This document shows positions 2,693 through 64,000 of a DNA stretch of 64,000 nucleotides, in pieces. This DNA is from Sclerotinia nivalis (Eukaryota > Ascomycota > Leotiomycetes > Helotiales > Sclerotiniaceae). The notes below the pieces were generated by a model that did no database searches, had not been told where the DNA came from, and was given only the letters and a program-made list of their open reading frames with translations. Both the position numbers and the translations under genes were made by a program. Every line of letters starts with the position of its first letter. The first letter of the stretch is position 1. The DNA is taken from NCBI GenBank assembly GCA_029531795.1, contig JAPEIS010000001.1, positions 7,130,001-7,194,000 on the forward strand, in the 5' to 3' direction.

Positions 2693-4967
2693 TGGAAGAC
2701 TTCTTAAGTAAGATAAGGGAGATAGTATGCGATGTTATGATTGTTATAGGATTTATACGTTTAGGATATCATACTAGGAAGCAGCACCGCTTTTTGAATG
2801 TTCATTTCAACGTCTCTGAATTGATCTGCGACGTGCACCATATAACAACAGCTGTTGGCTGTTGGGAATGATTTCTCCACGGAGGCTAATGCGAAACGAC
2901 GATAAGTCGAAGATGGAAAGTCTTCCGGATACGGGTCAGGATATGAATTTTCATTTTAGTGCTAGTACGGGTTGTGGGACAATACTCGATTTTATTTCCT
3001 CATAGTCGGCCTAATTTTTTGTAATTAATTCAAACTTCTCCCTACTCTGGGCTTTTGACTTCACGTTCTGCGCCTTGAATCATCTTCACACCCTGTGAAC
3101 TTATCTATACAAAAGATATGTACGACTAAGCTTGGTTAGGACGCAAATGGCATGCTGAATCCCTTGGATGTCGTGCAGTATTCATACTCGCTTATGTTAG
3201 CCCCTATTAACGACGAGACACTGCAGCCATTGCTAATGCGGGATTCACTCCTTAACTGATCTGACCATGATGTATTGCTAGGACCCCAGTTAAAAGGAAG
3301 TATCGGAAACTCGGTCGCTGATTTTCGGATGAAAATAATACTGGCGAGGAGACCGATGAACGCTTTACTTAAAGCACGAGCAGTCCACAAGACGGCACAT
3401 GTATAATAGCGCGGTAAAACTTCCGTTCTTAATGAATTGGTCAGTCTAAGACTCTAAGAAGCACATCACAATTCGGTAAAGAAATTTTGACTTCCTCTCC
3501 AACATCGATTTTAATTGAAATGAAACAACTATTGGATATACATCATCGCCACGGAAGACACTAGTTGTCTCGGCCTGATAAGAGTATGAGATGAATACCC
3601 CGATAGAAGTCATATGAAGTTTTGAGAACGCTTCGTCATACATATGCAATAGAAAGTACTCCTGTTAAGGGTGGCGTGAAGTTGAAATTCTGCAGTTGGA
3701 GCCGGATGTGAGGAAGATTAAAGCAATAGCACTTGGATCTTCTAAATCAATGGGAGAAATAAATTGATTGATGAAGAGACCTACTGGCAACAACCAATGA
3801 AGGGACTTGAGTCACTTGACAAGTAGGCGTATATCTTTGTTGCGCATCCAGTGTTTGATTCATTGCTGTACACTAATCTTTCTCAGCAGGACTAAATCAA
3901 CCTTGAAAAACGATCTACAACAGAGTGGCTTGCACTAAAGCAACCGCCACAAGAATTTTCAGCCATTGCGTCCCTTGCACCCTCGGACACTGACACTTGT
4001 GTCTTGTCTTCAAGTAGATGGTTTACCTGTCTTGTACGAAAAGCATGTGCTAGAAGTAATTGCAGACCACTTAATGATCGACACGCGAGAGGCGGAGTTA
4101 ACAATCCATCAGGATCCCAAATATCTGCCCTCGCCCTCTCAACGCCCTTTCACCCTCACGCATGTTCCGCAACAACTGATTGGCCAACCTACCCAAGTAA
4201 CACAATGCCCCGCACGCCCTACATCTCGCCCTTGAATGCCCTTTGGCCGCCCTCTTCCTTACGACATGCAACAAATGCCTTCCTATCAGCTGATAATCAT
4301 CGAATCAAAAGTAAGGATACACTTTGCATACACCACACCTCAGACTTTCATTCATAACTCGCCCCCTCGCTCCTTTTTGACCCTGTCTATCACTCGGGGC
4401 ATTTGATGGTCTGGTCTCTTACCGTAATAAGAAAAGTACTCACTATGAGACAATGTTATTTGACAGACGATAAAATATATATGAGAGCTCATAGACTCGA
4501 TGATTATTTGACAAATGTTTTCATTCATTTCTTATTTCACATGTTTCTTTTGTTTGTCGAATCATATCTATTCGTTATTATCGGGTGATAGCAATAGCGG
4601 TGAATTTCTGCCGGATCCAATCACGCTAGTGAAAACATCGAGTTTCCCCTCATTATACTAACCATAACCATTCAATGCCAACGACGTCCCTTCATCTTTC
4701 AGATGTTCAAAATGTCACATAGATCTATCAATTCCCGAGTTTAATTATTTCATTCATTATGTGCTATGGATATAACCATTTCGTAGGTTACAATAAATAG
4801 TGAGGACGTTGCGTTTCTCCAAAATCCCAGCCAGCCAGTGTCCACCCAGGCACCAGCAGCAAAGTGGTATCAATCATCCCAAAATTCCCCAGAAATGCTA
4901 TACAAAACACCAGTTATGCTGATATTATTGTCCCAGTTGCGCCATGCTAAATATGAAACAACTTATA
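2693..4967. other. Intergenic spacer, no supported gene
   Basis: This spacer lies between the 3' ends of the fusion gene (+) and the PP1-regulator gene (-), so it is a convergent 3'-3' region. Short open frames at 3136-3390 (-), 3446-3649 (-) and 3966-4357 (+) show no recognisable domain and cannot be joined by clean splice sites. I see no gene in it. Confidence 0.6.
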
Positions 4968-6293: not shown

Positions 6294-7355
6294 ATTTCTT
6301 CTGTTCGTTGTTGAATCGATAAGTGGTTTCCAAGTCGAGTTCGATCATTAAAAGATAAGTAATGGAGTTTTGAAATTGTAATACGAAATATATGCAATTT
6401 CCCTTTTTTTTTTAGTGTTGGTACGGTACTAACACTAACAAAATCGGTTGGGGTAGCTTTAGCTCCAGGGTTTCTGAGGTATATAATTTGATACAATCGC
6501 AAACCTCAAGAAAAGAATTTGGATTTCGTATCAGAATATTATATGGTATGAAGAGGTTCGCAATGTATTATGAAGAAAGTGAAGATATTTTGAATTGGTT
6601 TTAAATGGACAAAAGATCAGCATAAATTAAATGTGTTGTGAAATTGGACATGAGAAAATTGTTGAGATTCTGGGGTAAAGTGATGCAAGGGAGTGGATGA
6701 TAGTGGATTTTCGGAGCATATATGAATTTAATGAGTTACACGCTTATGGACAATAAATAACAAGCTTATGGGATTATATCTTATACAAAGTACAACATCC
6801 CGTCACACGGAATTTACAAGCATGATGATCCTACTCCGTACAAGACCTTCGAATATCTTCTAGCCGAGCCTTACGAAAGTTACGATATCAATGCGAATAT
6901 GCCAATTCTATTCCGTACTCATTAATTCATAACTATTTACAATTTGACGGTGGACTCTAACATCAAAGAAAGTTTGATTTATCAATGGCTTTAGCCTCAT
7001 TCTTGGTTTTTCGATGGATCAGAAGCTGATCATTTCTTAAAAGATTAACAACACAATCTTTTGACGATAGTCTCATTCCTGTTGTATCTATTGGAGATTG
7101 AAGCACGAACAGATCAAGTATGAAGTAGGAGCTTAAATTATGCTGATCCTCCCTACCGCCATGGGAATGTTCTCCCCCTAAGATTATTGCTGCGCTGTCA
7201 AAGCAACGCCAAATTAGCAAGATTAGGTACCTAGGTTATGGAGATCTTTCAGACTTTGACGATACTGGATAACTGGATCGTGAGGTATGATGATATTATG
7301 ATACACATATCACACTTTAACCTCGGTACGGAGTAAGGCTTCAACACTTCCATCT

Positions 7356-7387
7356 CGTACTTTTCGTACTTTTCGTACTTTTCGTAT
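7356..7387. repeat. Short tandem repeat of CGTACTTTT (about 3.3 copies)
   Basis: The 9-nt unit CGTACTTTT is repeated three times in perfect tandem and then runs into CGTATATTTT. It lies in the gene-free spacer upstream of the PP1-regulator gene. Confidence 0.85.
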
Positions 7388-8174
7388 ATTTTTCTGCTTG
7401 AGCTACCAACTCAAGGCGCTTATTCAACTTCCGTCCATTCAATATACGAGAATTCCGTACATCGTTTTAATAAGGCTAAGATAACCTTACAAATTGATCT
7501 TCAACTTCACGTAATCCACAAACATTCGGAGACCGAACATCTGAACGGGATTCCCATGCGCTTCTTGAAATTACCCCACGATCTGGATCTACTCATTGTA
7601 CGTGGTTGACACTATTGACTTGCTAAGATATATTTGAACGCCTTATACGCAGGAGGATGATAGTTAGTTTCAATAATTCAGGGCGTTGGTTAAAAAGGGA
7701 GATCATTTGGCTTGGTTTAGATCGATATCTGTTGCTTTCGCACTTCCCCATACCGGAACCCCGGCCGCGGTGTTCGATGATGGTGGATGGATGTAAGATA
7801 TAGATGTGAGATTGAGATTTAGATTGAGATATGACCCCCACGTTATTATTACACCCGACGGCTAGCTTTGGTACAACTTCCATATCATACTCTATATCAT
7901 ACCGATACATTGCTAGCAGAAGATAACCAACTACTCCCAAAAGATTCAAAGATGGGAAATATCGATTATGTATGTATGCATAGCGATATATAGCACAGCA
8001 CAGATAAAGTTTCATTTCAGCTGTACGGAGTATATTGAAGGAAGATCATGAACGTATTTTGATTACCTAGAATTAGGATTCGGTATGTATGTACGGAGTA
8101 GAGAGTAGAGAGTAAGTACCTACCGGTAGTTTTACTGTATGCATTGACAATTCCACAATGTGAAGAAATAAACC

Positions 8175-8601: not shown

Positions 8602-10879
8602 GAGGATCTTTTCTTTGATGAAAGCTACGACTATGAAAGCTATGAGTAGGGTGTGTATCTCAATAGTACCTCGATATTACACCTACGTTACATTATGTGA
8701 AAAATCTAAAGTCTCAAAGTCTTGATTGTTGATAGTTGATTGATAGATCTTGCTTGCTTGCTGGCAAAGTTGGTAGTGGATAGGATATACTCATTCTGAT
8801 TCTAATTCATGAACGGGCTCCAGTTTCAATTTGTTGAGCTATGCACATCTACAAAACAAGTTCATGAGCTTACGAGCTCACAAGTGGATTAAATTGGTAC
8901 GAAGTATCCGTCCCGTTCCGTTATGCCTTGCTTTGGTATTCCTAGGTATGGAGTATCTACGAAGTATCGTACGTTTTATCCACCTATCCACCTATCTATC
9001 CATCTCTATTTCTATTTCTATCTATATCTATCTCTCTACGCTTGAATATTCGTACTCGTCTTTGAACCGAGGCGAAGTACGGAGTAAGGGATCAGAATTC
9101 TTGGATCCACTAATGGACATACGGAGTTTGATGGATGTACGGGTACTTGAGTATGAGGTATGATGCCGTCGCTTACCAGCCTGTGCCGGTATCGCCATCG
9201 TCAAACTTCTATGTTTTCATGCACTTTGTTATTTCATGCTGTTTGTTGTAACTTGTCTGAGATTATGCTATTTATTGATTTTTGGCTCTTGTAGCTGATA
9301 ACTTGTAATTTACTTCTGCCTTGAAAGATTAATATTTACTCCATATATCTATATCATGATTGAATTATACTAAGGATAAGAAAGGGGTCACATTTTACCT
9401 CATCTATACGAGTACTTCTAGCCAAAGTTTGCTTGCTTGACCTATCTAGTCGTTACCAAATCTAAGCGGAATGGAGCTGAGGTTTTGAGCTGAAACTTTT
9501 TATTTTTTATTTTGCTATAAGAATTTCATATTGTTTCTTTGATGTAATATTATGTTGTATTTATCTAATATCTATCAAGATGGTAGTTACTGTAAGATTG
9601 GTATAGAAATAGAAGTATAAGGGATTCTATTGGATTTTTCAATCAAACATATAATTATAGATTATTTTCTATTATTTACTCTCCTTTTTACTCAATTCAT
9701 TCATCCATTCACGTATTCATTCATCAACCTATACCTTAAATCTTACACATATATATCCACACTGCGTTAATATCTCACATCCCATTACATCCATCACATC
9801 TCCCTACCTCCTATACACCATATGTACCATCCTCAACTCATCTCATAGTGACTAATAAGTAACTAACTAAGCAAATAAGTAGTAAATAGTACTTACTGTA
9901 CCACACTACCACCAACAACTTCCACATGAGTATTATGTCCCATACACCATCATCAACTCATCTCAAGGTAGAAAGTAAATAGTAAATAATCCTCTGCTAC
10001 AGCCGACACTTTCGTCTCATCGATACTACAGCTTGAAAGGATATCCAAATCATCGGGATCATTCCCCAGGATTAGTTTTCACTTCCTCCATTCAATTCAA
10101 AAGATTGAGTCCACCTCAATCATTCAAATCATGTATTTAGCAGGCCCACAAGCCAGCTTACCTTCATTATGTTACCTGTTAGGAGTTCGCGAGAGCCTCT
10201 AGCCGTCTTAGATAGTCTTAGACTCAGTGTAGACGTTAATTTAATCAATCAATCGATATCCAAATCAGGTCCTGTATAATCAGATCCATCTAGTAATCCG
10301 ATCCGTTTAATATAAATTTGTAATACTTGACGACGAAATGACAGGATGAATATATAGTATATGATTATCAATACAAAGGCCATCTTATATATAGATTCTC
10401 AATTATATATATAAAAGTCACCTCACCTTATCTGCTCAATAATAGATTATACATATTTTCCTAGATTAACAATAGAAGAAAATAATAATATTATATATAC
10501 TTGTATATCCTCTCCTTTCCTTTTCTTATATATTACTAAACTCATTATTAAATTCCTAAACCCAAATTTTTTACAAAATTCATCTCATCCCATCTGATCT
10601 AAAAAAACTAAGGATGAGGGTGAGTGAGGGGGGAAAGGAGATAGATAATTAAATAGTTAAATATTTAATAATCGGTATTTAGTTGCTAAATAAGATGAAG
10701 ATGAAGATGAAGATATATATACTTTTTCTTAAAGAGAGATATTAGTTCCTCTTTAGAGAGTCGTACAATTCATACAATTCACACCCTTCACACCCTTCAC
10801 TCCCTCCATGCCCTAATCTTTTACCTACCCCCTACCTACCCTCTACCTAATCATAACCAAAAGCAACCTACTCGAGCTC

Positions 10880-37637: not shown

Positions 37638-37843
37638 ATTGGATATATTTTTTATTGATGGGTCACGATATCATGCCTAAAATTGGCGATAGGGGAAATG
37701 TATTTAGACTGAGCATGCAATGAATGAATTTGACATACACTGTGTGACAAATAGTTAATTCTTTTTTGTCAATGGACAGTGTCCGGAGATCCTTTCAATA
37801 TATATAATAGTGAGCATAAAAAAAGCCTAAAGAACAAGAAAGC

Positions 37844-38093
37844 AGGGTTACAAAACCCTGAAACCCCTAAAAAGGTAAGGTAAGGACAAGTAAATCCATT
37901 AAAGCTCCACAAAAAGCTAGAAACTCTATAAGAGTTTAAAGGACAAGTAAGTCCAAGAAGCTTTCCTAAAAGCTATAAGCCCTACAAAAGGCTGAAAACC
38001 CTACAAAAGGTTCAAAAGGATAAGTAAATCCAAGATTCAAAGGACGAGTAAGTCCATGAAGCTCTAGAAAAAGCTCTTTGGGCAAGTAAGCCC
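37844..38093 (-). repeat. Hairpin array A: about 13 short hairpins, ~20-nt period
   Basis: Successive small inverted repeats start at about 37844, 37863, 37884, 37903, 37921, 37941, 37959, 37978, 37997, 38018, 38042, 38060 and 38080. Examples read on + are AGGGTT-ACAA-AACCCT (37844-37859), AAACTC-TATAA-GAGTTT (37921-37937), GGAC-AAGTAA-GTCC (37941-37954), AGCTTT-CCTA-AAAGCT (37959-37974) and GGGC-AAGTAA-GCCC (38080-38093). Stems are 3-6 bp and loops mostly 4-8 nt. Stem sequences differ from unit to unit but both arms change together. The first units, read on -, lie inside the C-terminal codons and stop of the adjacent minus-strand gene. Confidence 0.85.
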
Positions 38094-39887
38094 ATGAAAA
38101 TGAGATAAATTAAAAGCAAAATAAAATATGCCAAGCCATAAATTGGCTGGTTAAATAGAAGCGGATGATGAAGACCCCCCGGGACTTCTGGCATAGAAAA
38201 TGAAGATGGCTGTTGAGCTCCTCCCGAAGCTTCTATGGTAGAAGTAGAGGCTGGTTGTTGAACGGTCTCCATGGTGTTTGAAGAAGAAGATGCAGCTTGT
38301 TGGGCCACTCCAGCAGCTTCAGATGCAGAAGCAGATGCTGCTTGGTTGATGTTTTTAACTTCTTTCGCGTCTTTTAACCATGTTTTGACACTTTTCAGGA
38401 AGTTTCCGGAGAGTGCGTATTTTTGGTTGAGGGCTTCACGGTTCTCCAAGTTATTTCCTGATGTAGCAAGTTTGGCCTTCGAAGTTTGGAGAGTTGATTC
38501 TGCTAGCTTCCTAGTCTCCGTCATTTTCGCTTGTAGATCCGAGAAGTTTTCGAGTTGATCATCCCATTTCTTCTCGACTTCTTCATCGCAACATTTAGCA
38601 ACAGTATCTACTGGTTCAAGTTCTGCAACGAGTTCCGGTGGGCACTGCGCAAACCGCTCTTCGTACCAATTTAATGTGCTGTGGAGGTCACCGACTTCTT
38701 TCCTTGTTTCCGTAAGATTCTCTTGATAATGAGGGTTGTCGGTGAACACTTCAATTTTCTCGGCCTTATATTGGTATTTCATATCTCGAGCATTGTTTGT
38801 GCCGGGCTGCTTAGGATTGAATCCGCCATCATGAACCATGGTTCCACCAAGGCTAGTGAGCAAGTTCTCTGACAATCTGTACTGGGGTTCCTGCCATACT
38901 TTAAAGATGGGACAGGATACAAGCTTGACTTTGAACTTGAGAACTTCGAGACAGCTAAGCGTCAAGCCCCATGGAGCTGTAGAAGATCGAAGTCCACTAG
39001 AAGAGTCGTGAGCACCCATTCGGATAGATAATTGCCTCGCACATCCTGCCTCTAGTGGATTCTGAATTTGTTGAATATCGCCGGAAGGGTCGAGTTCCAT
39101 CGCATTCCTTTCTAGCATTTTATCATAGAAAACTTCTAGTTCCCCCATAGCATTCGTGAAATATCGTTCACCGATCTGTTGATTTAATTTTCGTCGACCA
39201 AATGCTTCATCAATTTCCTCTGCTTTGCGGGCATTTTCTTTCTCCTCAGCTGTCCTAGCGATATTTCCCCAGCCATCTATGTATCCACATGTTGCATATG
39301 TCAGTATCTTTCTGAGCAGCGTAGATAAAATAAACACACAAAATTATGGAAAGAAACTTACGTTTGAATCATCTTTTGAACTTTCTCCATTCATGTCTGG
39401 TGAGGCCTTTGCCTATATTCTCGACTTTCTTGGATTTAATTACAAAAGTGTTCAAATGCGAACCACTGGTTGCATCAGACTGATAGATGAGCTTTCTGAA
39501 GCTTTCATCCGTCATATACTGATAACCAAAATTGTTCCATATGATGGCTTCGGTGACACGCTTTGGAATACTGAGTAGCAAAGATGAAACGCATTTTTGA
39601 TTCTCATAATCAGCAATAAAAGCGCTTGATGCAGCCCTCATCTTGCCTCTAGTGATGTACTCATTAGGATTGTCCCCCCTTTCAGCTTCGCTAATCGCAA
39701 AGTCTTCTTTAGCAAGTAAATAAAGTTCCTTATGTAGTTTTGAAAAACTGTAGTTCTCAAATGCTTTGATGAGTCTTAATCGTCTGGTGTCAAGGGCTGG
39801 GTATTCGGCAGTTGGTGATCGTGGCAGATGTTTCATTGAACTTTGAATAGGTACGAGACCCATATCATCATGTCTATCGTCTGCCAT
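38012..39887 (-). pseudogene. Uncharacterised tail-anchored-like protein, broken by one in-frame TGA
   Basis: Exon 1 starts at ATG 39887 and runs to 39362. Exon 2 is 39276-38012. The 85-bp intron has a canonical GTAAGT donor and a TAG acceptor and joins both open frames in phase (AAA C|AT). The only obstacle in 597 codons is TGA at 39371-39369, seven bases before the donor, where CGA would give Arg. The protein is charged and helical. It has EEKENARKAEEIDEAFGRR, a Glu/Lys-rich middle, an Ala/Ser/Gln-rich stretch with SASEAAGVAQQAASSSS, and a hydrophobic segment (IYGLAYFILLLIYLIFMGLL) about 30 residues from the end. No family recognised. The last codons are made of hairpin-array units. It could be a fresh pseudogene, a stop-terminated 172-aa protein, or an allele-specific stop. 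Confidence 0.6.
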
Positions 39888-40382
39888 GGTTGTTTGTATG
39901 TTGATGATTGATGATTTATATCGTGGTGAACTAGTCTGATGATTGTAGTTTGATAATATGATAATGGATATTTTTTAGGACGCGTTTGTGGGTAAGGTGA
40001 GATTATACGCGAAAAACCCCTTCACTACATTTACGCACCTTGTCGACTACATTTTATGAAGTTTCCTTCACTGTGGTTTACTATCTCGTTTTATCAACCC
40101 ATTATAGAGGTCTCTAAGATATTGATATGTATATCTCATCAGACGTTTTAACTCACTCCGTGAAAGATAAAAAAATCGGAAAATTTGGGATCTCATATTA
40201 TTCATATAGTGGGATGCTCAACTATAAAAATTTTCATATAATCATCGTTTATGAATCGTGTTTGTGGCCCTGTCGGAAAAATATCCGCGCTAGGGAAATC
40301 TATTCCAAAAGTCGCGAGCTTCCCTCTTCACATTCACATCCAAATCGCGATTCAAATATTCACAACACACAAATCGTTCACT
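39888..40382. other. Divergent promoter between the two array-associated genes
   Basis: 495 bp between the two start codons. AT-rich. No gene. Likely a shared bidirectional promoter (inference). Confidence 0.5.
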
Positions 40383-42280
40383 ATGGATGGCAAAGAATCA
40401 CAATGGCGTCGCCGTCATGATGATGACGATGACGATGACGAACAAAAACAACGAGAAATGGAAGCCGAGGATGATGAAATACGACAGCGTCAAAGACTCA
40501 TTGATAACATCGAAGAGAGGATCGCCGCTGACCACACGGTCAATACAACTCTCGTCAATGAAATCCGAAGCATTAAGCAACAACATGAGGACAACCTTAG
40601 GAAAGTTGATGCATCTTACAAGGAGTATGTCCAATCACGAAAAAACACTGAAGCTGTTCAAAGAGATATTTTATGTTATAGTAGAGAACAACTAACTCTG
40701 ATTGTATGTAAAAGTGTGTATATTGAATAAAGGTTCCAAGCTAAAGATTATTTATAATAAAGTGTAAGACTAAATAAGGTTAGTGTAAGTGATCACGTGA
40801 TCACTGTAACATTTTATCTTTGAACGCTGATGTGGATGTGGATGTGGAAGACGAGATTGCTTTAAGTATGCGCGATGACCCTGAGGGTTTTGCAACTCAG
40901 TTACTCGAAGCAGCTGAGATCTTACCTCCTCCCGCACTAGTCGAGCAGGCCTTGGTTATTCTCGAAGCAGCTAAGGTTGACATATCTGAGCTTAATGAGT
41001 CTGTTCGGGAACTTGCGACGAGTCGATTTCTTGAAGCCGAAAGGTCAAAAGCCGTAGGTGGAAGGAGAAATATGAACAGTTAAGGGACCAGCAGCAGCGA
41101 GTTCGACCTCAACCTCAACTTCAACCAATTCAAGATTTTTCAGCGCTTAATTCAGAGCTCAGGCAACAATTGGCAACAGTTAACTTGAGACTTACAAAGC
41201 TTCGAAGAAGCAAATTCATGAATGAACAGGAGCTTAAAACGAAAATCGATGGGATTGAGGAGGTCAAAAGCAGCCAGGTGTTGAAAATCGCACATCTTGA
41301 TGGTCAGATAGAAACCCAGTCCTCTACTATCGATTCCAACAATACGGAGATTCAACGCCTCAACGACCAGGTTAGCTTCCTTAGCGATAGCTTGACGGCA
41401 GAACAGAAGGCTCATACCAAAACTAATGGACTCTTAGGAGACATGAAATGGCAGAGAGACGACTGGGCAAAGGCGACTGGAGAATTCATCGATAAACTTG
41501 CGGCCCTTCAGTCGACAAACGAAGCTCTTCAACAAAACCTCAGCCAGTTAACAAGGGAAAATACTTCGTTGAAAAGAATGGCCAAGAAAAGTTCCACGGA
41601 GATCCAGCACATCAAAACTCTCAATGTCAACAAGGACAATGAAATCCGTCTCCTCAATGTCGAGAAGGAAGCTTTGCGCAACGAAATCGCCAAATATTTG
41701 GATGCTCGTGTCGAAGGAATGTCTGAATCAAGGGGTGCATCTGCCGAATCTCACAATGAAGGAATCTCCGACTTAGAAAGCCGAAATATCCGACTCTTAC
41801 GAGAAGGCAATTTTAGTTTTACGAGAGGCACAGAAGAAGGTACAACAATCTGGTCAAGTCGATTATGTAAACCCGAAGAAACGGAAAGTCTCTGAAGTTA
41901 CTGACTACCAAAACGAAGATGAAATTCGTACTGTGGAAGAAAATTGCCAAGGGAAAGAAAGACTTTAATTGGAGATGTTTCTTAGAAATCTGCGACTCCA
42001 GACATTTCGACTACGAGAAGCTCTCAATTTTGACCGACGAATCTACTCAGTGTCTGACATGCAAATATCAATCATTGAAATTTTGCATACAAGTTATACA
42101 GAGGAAGGGTCGATTTGTCCGATTAGTGAAGCAGGAATGATTCCTATTTGGAGTTTCTCTCTCTTCTCTTTCAATCTATGGCTATGTGCCCTGTTTCTTC
42201 ATTTTCTTCGTGGGCTTCGTAGCCCTTCCTTAAGCTTTCCAGCTTTCAAAAGTTTTTTTAAACTATTTTTTAAAGTTTAG
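40383..42280 (+). pseudogene. Uncharacterised coiled-coil protein with C-terminal hydrophobic segment, multiple lesions
   Basis: Exon 1 (40383-40703, donor GTATGT) encodes MDGKESQWRRRHDDDDDDDE and a charged helix. The next exon begins around 40820 (acceptor unresolved) with GFATQLLEAAEILPPPALVE. Coding then continues only if the frame changes near 41050, giving RWKEKYEQLRDQQQRV and a long coiled coil, and again near 41805, giving LREAQKKVQQSGQ, the basic NPKKRKV and a Glu/Asp-rich stretch. A TAA at 41966-41968 follows, beyond which the same frame encodes FLRNLRLQTFRLREALNF and a hydrophobic stretch (SFNLWLCALFLHFLRGL), ending at 42280 inside hairpin array B. PKKRKV resembles a classical nuclear localisation signal. 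Family unknown. The lesions suggest a decayed gene. Sequence error or missed introns are alternatives. Confidence 0.55.
40788..40805. other. Perfect 18-bp palindrome AGTGATCACGTGATCACT
   Basis: The 18 bases equal their own reverse complement and contain CACGTG (E-box-type core) flanked by two TGATCA boxes. It lies in the presumed first intron of the coiled-coil pseudogene. A binding site for a dimeric bHLH factor is possible but untested. Confidence 0.6.
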
Positions 42281-42465
42281 TAACTTTTCATGGGAGTTTT
42301 TACCCCTTCCTCAAAGCTCTCTAGCTTTCATGGGTTTCGTAACCCTTCTTTGAAGTTTAGTAACTTTTCATGGGTTTTCTAACCCTTCTGCAAAGCTTTC
42401 TAGCTTTTCACGGGCTTCGTAGCTCATTCTTAAAGCTTGGTAGCTTTCTATAGGCTCAGTAGTCT
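42212..42465 (+). repeat. Hairpin array B: 12-13 short hairpins, 20-nt period, covarying stems
   Basis: Hairpins start at 42212, 42232, 42251, 42273, (42292 imperfect), 42313, 42332, 42353, 42372, 42392, 42412, 42432 and 42452. Most are 5-6 bp stems with 4-nt loops: GGGCT-TCGT-AGCCC, AAGCT-TTCC-AGCTT, AGTTT-TTTT-AAACT, AAGTT-TAGT-AACTT, AAAGCT-CTCT-AGCTTT, GGGTT-TCGT-AACCC, GGGTT-TTCT-AACCC, AAAGCT-TTCT-AGCTTT and AAAGCT-TGGT-AGCTTT. The ~6-nt linkers are TTCNTN-like, often TTTCATG. Both arms change together between units (GGGCT/AGCCC, GGGTT/AACCC, AAGTT/AACTT), and three or four units lie inside the end of the preceding open frame. Confidence 0.92.
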
Positions 42466-42663
42466 TCTTCATATGTTCTATAGCTTCTCTTATTAATGTA
42501 ATTGTAACTAATCAAATCACTTGCTCAAGGTAGCCTTTGAACCGAAGAATATATGGTTCGTGATTGGAACCTTTGTTTGATAGATAGACCTTACAATTAT
42601 GAGCGTCGGTTTAATCACAAATTAAGCGGGTGAGACAATGAATACATGTTGATTGATAGAAAC

Positions 42664-44186
42664 CTATGGTGACCAAATCTTCGTCCCACTAACCATTGGC
42701 AAAATCACATTCGCTACATCAGTTGGATCTCTCCACGCGGACCAATCGTGCGTAAGTAAACCTATACATCATTTGTTAGTCTCTGGTTATAAGGGGAAGG
42801 GGGAGGGAATCCTGAAGATTTCATTCATCACTCATAGCAGTAAAATAAAACCTTACCCCACGACTCATCAAGATCCTGAGCACCAGATCTAATATAATAA
42901 CTACCACTCAAAACCCAAATCATCCAACCGCCCTTGATAGAAGTCAAATAAGTCTTCAAACAAGTCGAATAAACCGTGGCGTAATCGGAAGCTGTCTGCG
43001 CATGACCCCATTCTGTCAATACCACCGGCATTTGATTCGTCGCTCCATCATTCAAAGCATTATAGCCCGAGGACCTCAAACTACTTTCTAAACTCGAACA
43101 ACTACTCGTCGAAGAAGCATAATTGTGAAGTTCCAAAACCAACTTGTTGGCAAATGAAAAAGAAGATTTGAGGAATTTTTGGGTGGTGGAAGGAGTTAAG
43201 AGGCCTGCGTTTGGGATGGGTGATAAATCGGTGTCGAAGTTTAGACCGGAGAGGAAAATTAGAACGTTGGGGTTGGCGTTATGGATACTGTTCATGCTAG
43301 GTACGACGTTTGCGTACCAGTTTTCCCAGTTGTAGGAGGATGAATCGAGAGTGGGGTTGGATTTTGGTTCACGAAGTTCGTTACGGAGTGACATGGACAT
43401 TAGATTACCCCAGGAGGCGCCCTAATTTATGTTAGAGTGTTTCTTACGGATAGAATAAATGATATTATAAAGTCATGCGATTGTGTCGGAGGTGAGGTGG
43501 CTCCGAATAAAAATGACTTACTCGAGCAGCCATGTATGCAAGACCCCGTTGCCAATTTGTAACATTAAAATAAGTATCTCCAAACCAAGAGTTACCATCG
43601 GTATTAGAGCAACACCACTCAGCCTTTGAGATATGATTATCAAGATGCACATAAATTTGCTGTTTGAAGCACTCTGCAGCAATAGCATCAAAGACCTTTA
43701 AATCAACAATCAGATCAGCAATCTCCTACACTCATTCATCCGATAACTACATACCTGCAATCTAGTAGTCTTACTCGAAAACGTAGGGTTATTCTTAATA
43801 ACTTGATTGTAAACAGCAGTACCATTTGCCGTCCCCAGGGCATTCTGAAAGCTTGTCAAAATCGGTACATCCACCCCCCCATTCGCATAAAAATCATCAA
43901 TCATTTCGATAGGATATGTAAGACGAATAACATTCATGCCTAAACTTTTGATCTTCGCCGCAATAGTGGCAATCGACTGATATTGAAGTCCTTCAGGTAA
44001 CATGGTATCTGCCGCACCGGGCCAATTGGCGCCAGCGTAAGTGACATTGTGGCCGGCGGAATCAAGAATCCATCGTCCGGTTGTGGTGAAGGGAGCGTAG
44101 GGCCATGTGGCTCGTTCTTCGATTGGTGATGCGATGGTAGATGTGAGGAGAGGGGAAAGCAGGAGGAGGGCTTTGGAGAAATACAT
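42664..44186 (-). CDS. Secreted GH5 glycoside hydrolase (endoglucanase-like)
   Basis: Exons 44186-43755, 43695-43522, 43421-42857 and 42761-42664 join in phase to 422 aa. Residues 1-19 are a signal peptide (MYFSKALLLLSPLLTSTIAS), so the enzyme is secreted. The TIM-barrel GH5 pattern is clear: NVTYAGANWPGA, GMNVIRLTYPIEM, YVHLDNHISKAEWCC, LRNELREP with the acid/base Glu at about residue 217, and VVLTEWGH with the nucleophile Glu at about 339. Likely N-glycosylation sites are present (NVT, NGT). It should cut a beta-glucan or related plant or fungal polysaccharide, with the exact substrate open. The short last exon ends THDWSAWRDPTDVANVIL and MVSGTKIWSP. A degraded copy of that end lies at 63215-63330. 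Confidence 0.93.
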
Positions 44187-59230: not shown

Positions 59231-62200
59231 ATGGTCGAAATAGTAATCACAGGGCCTTCACCTGAGAGACTTGAACGCGCGAGAGCTCTTCAGTCAAAAC
59301 TTTTGGGACTCATCGGTAAGTACATTAACTGGTAACATCCTTTTATCACTTCGGATACTAATATCGAATGCAGTAGCTGCAAGGGAAGACTATTTCAGAG
59401 TTGGATCACCTCGAGAGACAAGTCTCAGATTTGAAGTTTCCGAGTTCGGAATATGAGGGGTTTCCTAGTGAAACAGAGGATATGAATGAAGTCTGTCCAC
59501 TACCGCAAAAGATTGTCCTGAAGTGGAGATTGGAGGATATCGATGAATGTAATAAGGCAATTGATGAAGGGTTTGTCAAAATTACAGCATTTCGCCGGAC
59601 ACATACGTGGAGTAAGGTTGAGATCCATAAGTATTCGAGATATCGAGTATACGATTTTATAGGTGAGTTTACGGGATTCTCACTCTAATATCATAGAGCT
59701 TAAGTTTTTAGAATCATCACTCGGACGTCCCCTTATTCCTCGAGCAGCTTGGCATAGTCCAATCTCAAATGACGACCAGGTAAACTTTTACAGATGGGAG
59801 TTTAGCGAAAAGTATCCTTATTTTCTACACGTATCTTTTTCTTCATGGCCGCTGGCGTGTTACTTCAAACTCAATGAAGCTTTAGACGCTGGGTATCTTA
59901 CAATTGTTCCAATTGGTGAGAATGAAGCCTCAGGAAGTAGAATGTCACCAAAGACCGGTGGTTCAATCAGTACTCAGGTACATCACAAAAAACATAAACG
60001 CCGATCAGATCAAGATGCTATACACCATTCTCATTCCATGCCAAAAGAGATTAACAGAACTCCAACAAGCACCATCGTCGAGTCTTCACGAAATGAAGTT
60101 TTCTATTGGAATACTGATTCTTCAGATTTATCATCGGCACGTCTATCCTCGCCTGAGGATACCATACAGGTATCAACCAGCAAAAATGTTCAGCATGGAA
60201 AGATTCATTCAGACGTAGCTGATGCTGAAATTCCATCACCGGCACCGGCAACGCTATCCTCTCGTGAACGTGGCGCTCAGATACCAACGAGCAAAACTGT
60301 TTAGCATAGCAAGACACATTCAGAAGGAATAGTAGGTGAACCCAGCCAGGAAATCAACAACTCCGATCTCAAAAATTTATGCAACCAAGCATGGACCAGC
60401 TTAGAAAATGAGCACAAAACCGACAGTTGTAAAGAAAGATATACTCGAGTTACACTCAACATGGGCCTAATTTATGCAATCGAACTAAAAGAGCAGGTCC
60501 AGCGAGCCAACACTCTCGAGCATGAGAATGATAATCTAAAGATACAGGTTTTACGCCTAGAGCACAATCAGGAAATCCTACAACAGCAGATTTTAAATAT
60601 CCGGGAGAAATATGAGAAAGAAATTTCAAACGCAAGGTTAAAGGGAGAGAAAATTGCGGAGAAAAACATTGAACGACTTTGGAATTCGGCAAAAGAACGT
60701 GGCAGAGTCATAGGGGTGTCGGCTATGGAAAAAAAGTATAAAATGGAAGGATGTCCATCGAATGTTAATAGTCTTTATCGTACTAAACCATCGCCTCGAC
60801 CTTCGGCTACGCTGAACACTGGAATGGGAAGGAATCACCGTTCGACTGATGTTTTGGAAAAGGTGAGGCTATAATATTTATATAACGAACTTCCTATTGA
60901 ATGTATTATCTAGATTTCTTCAACGTATGATGGAAGTCGCAGCTATCTTCCTAAAGCAGCCGCTGCCTCTTCACCCCCGCCATCCAATCCAACGTCGCTA
61001 GTAGATGCGACTCCCTGGTCTTCTTCCAACCATCACAGGATTCCAAGACCAACATTCTCAACATCAGATTCCTATCACTAATACCTCCGTTCAGATTCCA
61101 CCTACTACACAAGGATTCCATGAGTCATTTCTCAATAATTTCTTCGGACCAATTAATAGCACACTCAACAATATTCCACCATGGCACATTCCAAACCCAG
61201 TTGAATGGACTAAGTTCTTCACGATACATTTGGATACACAACCATATATCTTCCCTCTATCGAACCCTACGCAGGCTTATGGCCAGATTGTTCACTTTGT
61301 CTCCCAAGCTTCGGTGGAAACATCCCGAGCAACTCAAGGAATTACTTACCCTACCCTTCTGCGACATTCACAAGATGTAAATAAATATTATTACATTGGT
61401 CATTTTGTTGTTAACAGTATCGTCACAACAACAGATTTCGATCGATTATTAAACAGTATGCCCGAAACTTTGGAAACTGATAAGCACACTAAACACAAAC
61501 TACTTAAGGAAAGAGATCGGGCTTTGGGCTCTGAGCCAACATTCGCGGAGGATATGCCGGTGGATTTCTACACTTTACAATATGTCTTCTTCGGGGAAGA
61601 GCAATATAAAATTCTTGTAGGTGCGCAAGAGAAGTTTGATGCTGCGAAGGATGCAGAGGATAATATCGATTCATTGTTAAAGGCAAATGATCGTAACCAA
61701 TCTCTTTCACTAGCCAACAATGTCCCTAACACGCCAGCGGCAATGAAGAGAGTCCGTCCATCCGATCTGTTGAAGTCGCAAGATCGGAACACATCTTTTT
61801 CTCTAGCCAACAAAATACCTAATGCGCCTGCGGCAATGAGGAGAGAACGTTTTTCTGCTGGCAAGAATCAAAGTTCTTCGCAGTCAAAGCATGCTATTAC
61901 CATAAGTTCGCCTCTTTCACAGGTTAAAAATATCCCCAATGGACCAGCAGCAATGAGGAGAAATTGCCCGTCTATTTCTAGACATAAAAGCCCGTCAAAG
62001 TTACATCGTCTTAGCAACATGAGCACACATAGTCTTTCGGTCAGAAGGAACCCTAATGAATTAGCAGCAATTCATAGGCGCCATCTGTCAAGCGGCGAGA
62101 ATCAACCCCCAGCAGAATCAAATCATCAAAACATCACGAGCACATTTCCTCCTGTAAACAAGGATTCTTATGAAGAAACTGCGCCGATGAAGAGAAAACA

Positions 62201-62336
62201 TTACTCAGGCAATAAAAATGAAAGTCCATGGGAGGAGGATGGTTCAAGGTGGAAGAAAAGAAATACGCCTGGTTCTATGCAAATTGATAGGGGCCGGGGT
62301 GGTCATGTTAATTGGTTAGCTAATCAGTTATGCTAA
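59231..62336 (+). CDS. Large Ser/Pro-rich repeat protein, uncharacterised; one in-frame TAG
   Basis: Proposed exons are 59231-59315, 59399-59662, 59712-60862, 60914-61000 and 61068-62336. All junctions are in phase, about 952 codons. The N-terminal part has ELDHLERQVSDLKF and KIVLKWRLEDIDECNKAI. FYRWEFSEKYPYFLHVSFSS then looks like a small folded domain. The central part carries a ~25-residue tandem repeat (LSSxxxxxQxxTSKxVQHxKxHS) and then a coiled coil (LEHENDNLKIQVLRLEHNQE). The C-terminal third has about five degenerate NxPNxPAAMRR units and a basic end. No known family. TAG at 60302-60304 replaces the Gln of the repeat. Either the gene is broken, or a 90-nt in-frame segment (60215-60304, GT...AG) is spliced out. 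Intron 61001-61067 has a weak GTAGAT donor. With it refused, the frame stops at 61079-61081. Confidence 0.5.
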
Positions 62337-63214
62337 TAAGCAGTTTTAATAACTAGTTAATATATCTACCGTTGGCTTACGCATGTGATTCATAGTATCG
62401 GCAGAAGTACGTTGCAAGATGTAATGGAAGTTTCGGAAGCCTGGATAAATACATGCATACCTACGTATTTTTGACAGTACAACGGCGAAATGGTGTCGGA
62501 AATTGACCTTTACTAATTGTGTTTTCTGGTGAATGCCAGAAAAGAAATTCTATAAAAGAATCCAAACTTTAAACAACGGATTATTTTGTAGTTTAGGTCC
62601 ATCAGTTAGGTTCTAGAAGTTATCGCTACTTAGAGATATTGACCAAGGACCATGAGATGCAAGCTTTCAAGAGGAAATTTGTGTGCAAGGGACTAGAAAT
62701 AGCGCGGCTGAAAAGGTTCGAAACGGAAAAATAATGGCTCGAGGAATATGATTGAGCGTATAGCGCCGGTACGAACGGAATAAGCGAGGACGTGAGATAT
62801 AAGGAGAATGAAGACATGAAAAGACCGATGAAATCACAAGAGGAGCGAGGAAAGAAAATAGAGGGAAGGGAAGGAAGATTGGGAAGTGGGAAGAAGTAGT
62901 GTCGATATTGCTGGATCGTCTGAAATAGGAGGAACGGAGAGCTTGGAGTAAAATTTTGGCATACATGGTTTGGGCCTGACATTTTTTCACGCACATTATT
63001 CTTACAGATTGGAGATACTAATCTTTTGGGTTATTGGTAGATCACGGGGTAGTTTCTTCGATATCCTCGGAGTGGGTATTGTTAGATTTTCACAGGAGGA
63101 TATTGCACCTACAAATGATCTGGGCGAGTTTCTTAGGTACGAAGGCATGTCAATCTTATTACCTACTGGCAATTGTGAGTCGTGACTGATCCATCTTGGC
63201 CATATCAATAACAC
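62337..63214. other. Spacer downstream of the repeat protein
   Basis: The frame 62970-63185 (+), containing FSQEDIAPTNDLGEFLRYEG, is open but has no recognised motif. A purine-rich block lies at 62800-62950. No gene supported. Confidence 0.45.
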
Positions 63215-63330
63215 CTACGGAGACCAAATTTTTGTCACGCTAACCATTGGTATAATTACATTCGCTACATCATTGGGATTCGAAATCAACAATTGTGGAA
63301 CCTTTTCCAGAATCCACATCAAGATATTCT
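63215..63330 (-). pseudogene. Orphan fragment of a GH5 C-terminus
   Basis: On the minus strand the frame LLISNPNDVANVIIPMVS then VTKIWSP and a TAG at 63215-63217 matches the last exon of the intact GH5 gene (DPTDVANVILPMVSG then TKIWSP, 42664-42761) over about 28 codons. No upstream GH5 exon is present here: the DNA beyond it is unrelated and then enters hairpin array C. Several differences are G to A in the coding strand (GTG/GTA, ACG/ACA, AAG/AAA). This is a truncated duplicate without function. Confidence 0.75.
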
Positions 63331-63462: not shown

Positions 63463-63663
63463 TTGATTCCCTTCCACAATATGAATTCGGTTCATTGGTT
63501 AGAACTAAATAAGGTTTAGCTCACCCATAACAAACGAGGATTCGATAAAATCAAAATATTAATCGATCTTATTTTCAAATTTTACAACCTACAATTCCTC
63601 CATACCATTCTTCTTTTCTTTTTCTAGAATTTTGTATTCTCAGTGCCTTTCATGGGGCTTAAT

Positions 63664-63792
63664 GGACTTACTTGTCCTCTAGGCCTTTCTCTGGGGTTTG
63701 TGCCTTTGTATGGCTCAATGGACTTACTTGTCCTTCAACCTTTTTTGGGGGTTTTACATGCCTTTTCTAGGGTTTCAGGGTTTAGTAACCCT
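63664..63792 (+). repeat. Hairpin array C, same family as arrays A and B
   Basis: Clear hairpins are GGAC-TTACTT-GTCC (63664-63677), the identical unit at 63720-63733, AACC...GGTT (63737-63753) and AGGGTT-TAGT-AACCCT (63777-63792). More worn units lie between them at the same ~20-nt spacing. GGACTTACTTGTCC is the exact reverse complement of units in array A, and the TAGT loop is shared with array B. Like array A read on the minus strand, it ends in an AGGGTT...AACCCT hairpin. A reading frame with FMGL at its entry is reminiscent of the other two loci. Confidence 0.78.
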
Positions 63793-64000
63793 TTTCTTCT
63801 TTTCTCCTTTTTATGTAAATAATCTTTTGTAGGGAGGAAAGAATATAAATTATTCCATAACTATTAAACTCAAGGTCCTGCGGATCCTTATAGGAATTTA
63901 GAATGATAGTGCGGGGTTGTATCTGAGAGCTCATTTTGATTATACAGTACTGGCTCGAAAGCAAAAGGTACTTCGTCAAGGAATGGATGGGAGATGATAT

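Follow-up and report, generated by a model that had tools for sequence, protein, structure and literature searches.

Within 26 kb of a 64,000-nucleotide stretch of Sclerotinia nivalis DNA (the window, about 64 kb), we found three tandem arrays of short hairpins. One of them, an array with a 20-nt period at positions 42212 to 42465, had been claimed in a preliminary description made from the sequence; its coordinates, its layout and its excess over shuffled sequence were confirmed, and two related arrays in the same window had been missed. Our preferred but tentative reading is that these are a locally duplicated family of structured-RNA arrays in the 3' flanks of genes, in which pairing would be kept by selection on the RNA.

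Results

Array 1 spans positions 42212 to 42486 on the plus strand, 317 nt past the stop of OCU04_002022, and consists of 14 hairpin units in which GGGYT-NNNN-ARCCC alternates with AAGYT-NNNN-ARCTT. A strict search (stem of at least 5 bp, loop of exactly 4 nt) found 10 perfect hairpins between 42212 and 42465, and the shuffle check proposed earlier gave a mean of 0.42 and a maximum of 5 in 5000 dinucleotide-preserving shuffles. Among the stretches listed that start at hairpins outside array 1, no 254-nt stretch held more than two perfect hairpins. Loop lengths of 3, 5 and 7 nt gave no hairpin in array 1, and the five cases with a 6-nt loop and the one with an 8-nt loop are the same hairpins as those with 4-nt loops or overlap them. 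The row is as regular as described, although the 12 to 13 units at 19 to 22 nt become 14 units at 18 to 22 nt, with start-to-start spacings in the periodic register of 20, 19, 22, 19, 22, 18, 21, 19, 21, 19, 21, 19 and 21 nt. The alternation of the two unit types produces a 40-nt period, on top of which lies an 80-nt higher-order repeat; Tandem Repeats Finder reported period 40 with 4.2 copies (42272 to 42438) and period 80 with 2.2 copies (42269 to 42447), and positions 42220 to 42367 match 42301 to 42447 at 77%. The unit AAGUU-UAGU-AACUU occurs identically at 42273 and 42353. Three units depart from the pattern by degeneracy or loss of register: the one at 42251 pairs perfectly but is apparently shifted by one base, and those at 42292 and 42473 contain mismatches. 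The units at 42412 and 42452 have one G.T pair each.

Arrays 2 and 3 were found by reading around two further matches to GGGYUNNGUARCCC in the window. Array 2 (37845 to 38093, minus strand) contains about 12 to 13 hairpins, mostly 17 to 24 nt apart as read from the sequence. Read 5' to 3' along the minus strand, it is made up of five hairpins with a UUACUY loop, six of ARCYYU type, one degenerate hairpin and a final GGGUU-UUGU-AACCC. The stems carrying the UUACUU or UUACUC loops are GGGC/GCCC, GGAC/GUCC, GGAU/AUCC, GGAC/GUCC and GGAU/GUCC, and the ARCYYU-type loops (3 to 4 nt) are UUCU, UUGU, UUGU, UAGG, UAU and UUGU. Array 3 (63640 to 63791, plus strand) is more degraded and comprises two GGAC-UUACUU-GUCC hairpins, wobble-rich GCC/GGG hairpins and a final GGGUU-UAGU-AACCC. 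About 22 nt after it, at 63814 to 63821, lies UGUAAAUA, which resembles a Puf3-type 3'-UTR site. The sense alignment of arrays 2 and 3 scores 123 (best of 200 mononucleotide shuffles, 54; reverse, 24), and the two match by BLASTN at E = 4.5e-5; judged by sequence, array 3 is a homologue of array 2. The sense alignment of arrays 1 and 2 passes too (score 76; shuffle maximum, 60; reverse, 20), and that of arrays 1 and 3 was not significant (46 versus a shuffle maximum of 50); no alignment in reverse orientation passed.

The claim that both arms change together while pairing is kept was supported, most clearly by the tetraloop units, which exceed both shuffles and slid registers. This set has 16 units (15 distinct), namely all 14 of array 1, degenerate or not, taken in register, and the final unit of each of arrays 2 and 3. 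Pairing occurs in 97.3% of 75 cells, compared with 79.4% after shuffling, a level reached by none of 500 shuffles, which overstate independence because the units share ancestry. Two-sided changes are present at all five pairs. When the 3' arm was slid, pairing was at most 72%, and the covariation score of 0.707 compares with maxima of 0.200 for slides of -3 to -1 and 0.455 for slides of +1 to +3. Because part of the covariation was inherited through the 40- and 80-nt duplications, there are fewer events than units.

Support for joint change is weaker in the other two classes. The UUACUY hairpins, first spotted by pairing, number seven (5 distinct), and a loop-only re-scan of the arrays returned the same seven and no others; their stems are GGGC/GCCC, GGAC/GUCC and GGAU/AUCC, one with a U-G pair. 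All are paired (100% versus 93.0% in shuffles), and the observed covariation was reached by 40 of 500 shuffles. Five ARCYYU units, selected by folding and pattern, likewise show 100% pairing compared with 93.4% in shuffles, 10 of 500 of which reach it. As a comparison with the rest of the genome, the pattern GGNNTTACTTNNCC has 68 matches, 6 in the arrays and 62 elsewhere. Both free pairs are Watson-Crick in 5/6 of the former and 5/62 of the latter (Fisher p = 1.4e-4, a value that does not count independent events, since the array matches share ancestry); with G-U counted, the figures are 6/6 and 8/62.

Divergence was compared between arms and loops. In A units (n = 6) the arms differ by 0.11 per site and the loops by 0.50, whereas in B units (n = 5) the arms differ by 0.20 and 0.36 and the loops by 0.38; the arm-loop contrast therefore rests on the A units, since B-unit arms are hardly more conserved than their loops. 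Taken together, A and B units differ by 0.31 to 0.34 in the arms and 0.45 in the loops.

The kind of change was counted in 25 regular units, namely 11 of the 14 units of array 1, the last units of arrays 2 and 3, 5 ARCYYU units and the 7 UUACUY hairpins. None of the 10 variable pairs contained a transversion, whereas five of the eight loop columns that vary did (p = 0.0065); counting by arm column gave 0 of 17 against the same five of eight (p = 0.001). This selection omits units 42251, 42292 and 42473, whose inclusion brings transversions into 6 of 10 stem columns, as well as the ARCYYU unit with a 3-nt loop, the degenerate unit of array 2 and the wobble-rich hairpins of array 3. The variable pairs of the regular units move only along A-U/G-U/G-C or C-G/U-G/U-A. 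The preliminary description had left a choice between selected structure and a copying mechanism that re-makes the second arm from the first; short of proof, the transition-only stem changes lean towards stepwise selection rather than copying. A study of template switching (Monttinen and Loytynoja 2022, PMC8794818) puts the share of transition-type events among instantaneous compensatory changes at 61%, so transitions by themselves do not decide against copying. No inverted loop was seen by eye among the aligned units (alignments A3, A4 and A5), a weak argument because loop inversions are rare in that study too.

Folding was computed with pairs limited to 26 nt. Under this limit, the local fold energy of the sense strand was reached by 0 of 1000 shuffles for each of the three arrays, and that of the antisense strand by 0, 0 and 4 of 1000 for arrays 1, 2 and 3. 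The difference between the strands lay within the shuffles (239, 401 and 138 of 1000 as extreme, in the same order). When the span is left free, array 1 adopts on its plus strand a mixture of long-range helices and hairpins at -75.0 kcal/mol, versus -58.6 for separate local hairpins. This unconstrained fold beats all of 200 shuffles (z = -5.4); the minus strand (z = -3.7, 1/200 shuffles as good) is largely a string of hairpins. The description of each unit as a local hairpin needs a correction here: a simple hairpin string appears on the plus strand once pairs are limited to 26 nt, whereas the unconstrained plus strand favors helices between units. A strand-specific RNA signature was considered and dropped: sense-stem mismatches comprise 12 G.T and 2 A.C, but shuffles give 70% G.T (p = 0.17), and both the G.T excess and the energy difference between sense and antisense strands vanish under composition controls. 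The RNA-level reading is therefore based on where the arrays lie, how they are oriented and the transition pattern, and not on strand-specific energy.

Array 1 sits in the middle of a 0.93-kb gap between two convergent genes, OCU04_002022 (40868 to 41895, plus strand, 329 aa) and an open reading frame (ORF) with a glycoside hydrolase family 5 (GH5) domain (42828 to 43400, minus strand). The next ORF (43710 to 44186) had no Pfam match and is presumed to be part of the same gene as the GH5-domain ORF. OCU04_002022 is without a Pfam domain, and a protein search at E<=0.001 among 421 candidates returned only itself, at 100% identity over the 241 aa searched. Array 2 lies at the 3' end of the gene model OCU04_002020 (38012 to 39887, minus strand, 562 aa in NCBI), which is convergent with a 6-phosphogluconate dehydrogenase gene and for which one other relative was found, at 66% identity. 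The genes 5' of arrays 1 and 2 are apparently lineage specific. As annotated by NCBI, the reading frame of OCU04_002020 passes through the first four hairpins of array 2 and then stops, so that its last residues (38012 to 38093) come from hairpin sequence; the 3' end of the gene model may be in error. Array 3 is flanked by an ORF with no Pfam domain (61005 to 62336, plus strand), which ends 1.3 kb before it, and by a frame with a P450 domain about 1.3 kb after it, on the same strand. The upstream ORF gave nine matches, none with a Pfam domain, and all eight named relatives belong to Botrytis/Botryotinia, Monilinia or Ciborinia. Arrays 1 and 2 are oriented alike with respect to the genes on whose 3' side they lie, and array 3 is oriented in that way with respect to the ORF 1.3 kb upstream. 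Kinship of the neighboring genes was dropped as an idea, since BLASTP among seven neighboring proteins matched no two different ones below E = 0.1.

At E<=10, DNA searches of the 50.3-Mb genome found for each of the three arrays only the array itself; because such searches skip simple repeats, the counts are lower bounds, and arrays of unrelated sequence would escape them. Two dimer patterns matched array 1 alone, twice each (controls, 0 and 0), and with up to 2 mismatches they still matched only array 1 (controls, 1 and 1). The single-unit pattern GGGYUNNGUARCCC, as GGGYTNNGTARCCC, was found at 9 places in the genome, not above controls (6 and 4), 4 of the 9 lying within the window and inside the three arrays; ARCYTTTTGTRGRGYT had 5 matches (controls, 0 and 2), 3 of them in array 2, and AAGYTNNNTARCTTTNCAT had 3, 2 of them in array 1 (controls, 12 and 3). 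The immediate surroundings of all 5 outside matches to GGGYTNNGTARCCC, and of 3 of the 5 outside fully paired TTACTT matches, contained no array when read by eye. The preliminary description had raised a selfish hairpin repeat; one spread through the genome was not borne out: the DNA and pattern searches place the arrays only in the 26-kb stretch, and in these searches arrays 1 to 3 lack the many copies of a dispersed transposable element or MITE. Rfam gave no hit at gathering score for the whole window (0 of 4227 families), the best weak match for 37800 to 42520, which holds arrays 1 and 2, being CRISPR-DR21 (23.9 bits versus 48 needed). A covariance model (R1) was built from five of the six array 1 dimers, the row at 42313 being dropped because the aligner gapped its stem.

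An earlier hairpin scan had been too strict and left arrays 2 and 3 unflagged. A local-folding scan of 200-nt segments, on both strands and with pairs of up to 26 nt, covered the window and 183 kb elsewhere (9764 segments, each strand counted). In the resulting list the three arrays came at row 1 (array 2), row 6 (array 1) and row 18 (array 3). Nine other strongly folding stretches (7340 to 7620 and 10030 to 10310 of the window, one each from samples L015, L018 and L019, and two each from L020 and L026) showed by eye a few longer hairpins and no 20-nt arrays. Five mixed hairpins in L014 (6480 to 6634) were taken as chance. Two places in L026 (180 to 420, minus strand, and 3430 to 3770, plus strand) contain related versions of one repeat that carries several strong hairpins; by eye they differ mostly by C-to-T and G-to-A changes, the kind expected from repeat-induced point mutation. 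In L033 (G000:C1:2828851-2829130), the minus strand carries similar hairpins, GGGUUUAGUAGCCC and GGGUUUAGCAGCCC, within about 50 nt; this pair is of the GGGUUUAG..GCCC type, and a longer array was not seen in the 280-nt stretch. No array was seen in 16 further kb, 8 adjoining the window and 8 on its opposite side from 3 kb beyond, the intervening 3.1 kb being covered by the local-folding scan. Overall, the genome sequence searches and about 200 kb of samples revealed no fourth array; arrays of the same design may exist elsewhere, since the samples amount to about 0.4% of the genome and sequence searches miss unrelated arrays.

Discussion

The likeliest account, which we nevertheless hold at somewhat less than an even chance, is that of a 3'-flank structured RNA, followed by a hairpin minisatellite kept tidy by copying. 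From the 3'-UTR structural RNA proposed in the preliminary description, the 3'-flank position has stood, arrays 1 and 2 each being found on the 3' side of a gene. In our reading, tandem growth in the 40- and 80-nt steps seen in array 1 would have built the arrays, and local duplication would have multiplied them, sequence homology being found for arrays 2 and 3 and for arrays 1 and 2. The arrays would most likely be transcribed within the 3' untranslated region and folded into hairpins, and selection on the RNA would keep pairing stem by stem through G-U intermediates. The UUACUY class, which keeps its loop while the stem changes, fits a candidate role as a hairpin presenting its loop to a binding protein; presumably, UUACUU loops also resemble the anticodon loops used by fungal A-to-I editing. 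The tetraloop class, in which the loop varies more than the stem, would fit a structural spacer or barrier. The putative effect would likely be on mRNA stability, 3'-end formation or localization. Opposed to this reading is the NCBI annotation of the start of array 2 as coding. A more specific version, a Sclerotinia nuclear family of 3'-UTR hairpin arrays with local spread, RNA-selected folding and two kinds of bead (constant-loop UUACUY with drifting stems, and tetraloop with drifting loops), seems doubtful in its entirety; if true, it would give mRNAs of fast-evolving genes an RNA control element that is modular and can be copied.

Should the arrays have no function, they could be a hairpin minisatellite in which folding of single-stranded DNA promotes slippage and expansion, and template switching re-makes one arm from the other without selection. 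We consider this rather unlikely, although several observations agree with it: the arrays are tandem and local, the DNA and pattern searches used turned up no other copy, folding is good on both strands, and template switching is described (PMC8794818) as both maker and mender of hairpins. Copying should, however, bring transversions into stems as it does into loops, and the variable pairs of the regular units hold none; the lack of inverted loops also speaks weakly against it. Pure inheritance would dispense with both copying and selection by supposing that duplication in 40- and 80-nt steps multiplied an ancestral palindromic unit and a few paired differences, and that the copies are now decaying. 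The 80-nt period, the self-match and the identical units of array 1 are signs of copying, and its degenerate units and the degraded state of array 3 agree with decay. In a star-tree simulation without constraint, which lacks duplication and is a rough null only, up to 97% of cells stayed paired by chance at a pairwise divergence of about 0.19, whereas at the divergence of A and B units together the maximum in 2000 runs was 86% (pairwise 0.35) or 83% (0.43), below what is observed. Together with the excess of loop over arm divergence in A units (small in B units) and the presence of paired differences in three hairpin classes, this makes pure inheritance improbable. Least probable of all, in our view, is an element acting as DNA, either dyad-symmetric sites for a protein or a fork or transcription barrier between convergent genes. 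The dyads are 18 to 22 bp apart, near two helical turns, and convergent genes stand on either side of arrays 1 and 2; yet a fixed protein would fix its half-sites, while here the half-sites covary and states of G-U type are tolerated, and array 3 is flanked by an ORF and a P450-domain frame on one strand.

Fungal mitochondrial genomes contain double-hairpin elements, which are mobile and consist of small paired hairpins whose stems vary while folding is kept. Unlike these, the arrays described here are local, tandem and 3' flanking, and they are nuclear, because the 8.1-Mb contig carries the OCU04_002022, GH5-domain and 6-phosphogluconate dehydrogenase genes. The A/B pairs of array 1 form a 40-nt unit, and the spread seen is local duplication. 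With minisatellites, tandem repeats of 10 to 60 bp, array 1 shares its head-to-tail units and its 40- and 80-nt tandem structure; to our knowledge, ordinary minisatellites are not known for covarying arms or constant-loop classes. Nor is a 3'-flank RNA array of this kind known to us by name, in Rfam or otherwise. Template-switch hairpins (PMC8794818) have perfect short stems and paired stem changes as here, but are mostly single and in RNA genes, whereas the present ones form tandem arrays and are transition-only in regular units.

If selection keeps the stems, some thirty related hairpins would provide a mutational record of RNA structure within one genome. Double changes and G-U intermediates could then be counted, and a two-step path versus a single template-switch event could be tested with genomes of sister species. 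The arrays would also represent a 3'-flank RNA array in plant-pathogenic fungi.

Two other kinds of repeated sequence were observed near the arrays. Directly upstream of OCU04_002022, at 40670 to 40816, lies a short dispersed repeat of about 140 bp with 9 further full or partial matches on other contigs (76 to 96% identity). In addition, positions 42662 to 42728, about 0.2 kb after array 1, are 84% identical to positions 63213 to 63279, about 0.4 kb before array 3; both can be read in one frame as YGDQIFV-LTIG-ITFATS-G and are probably relics of one exon.
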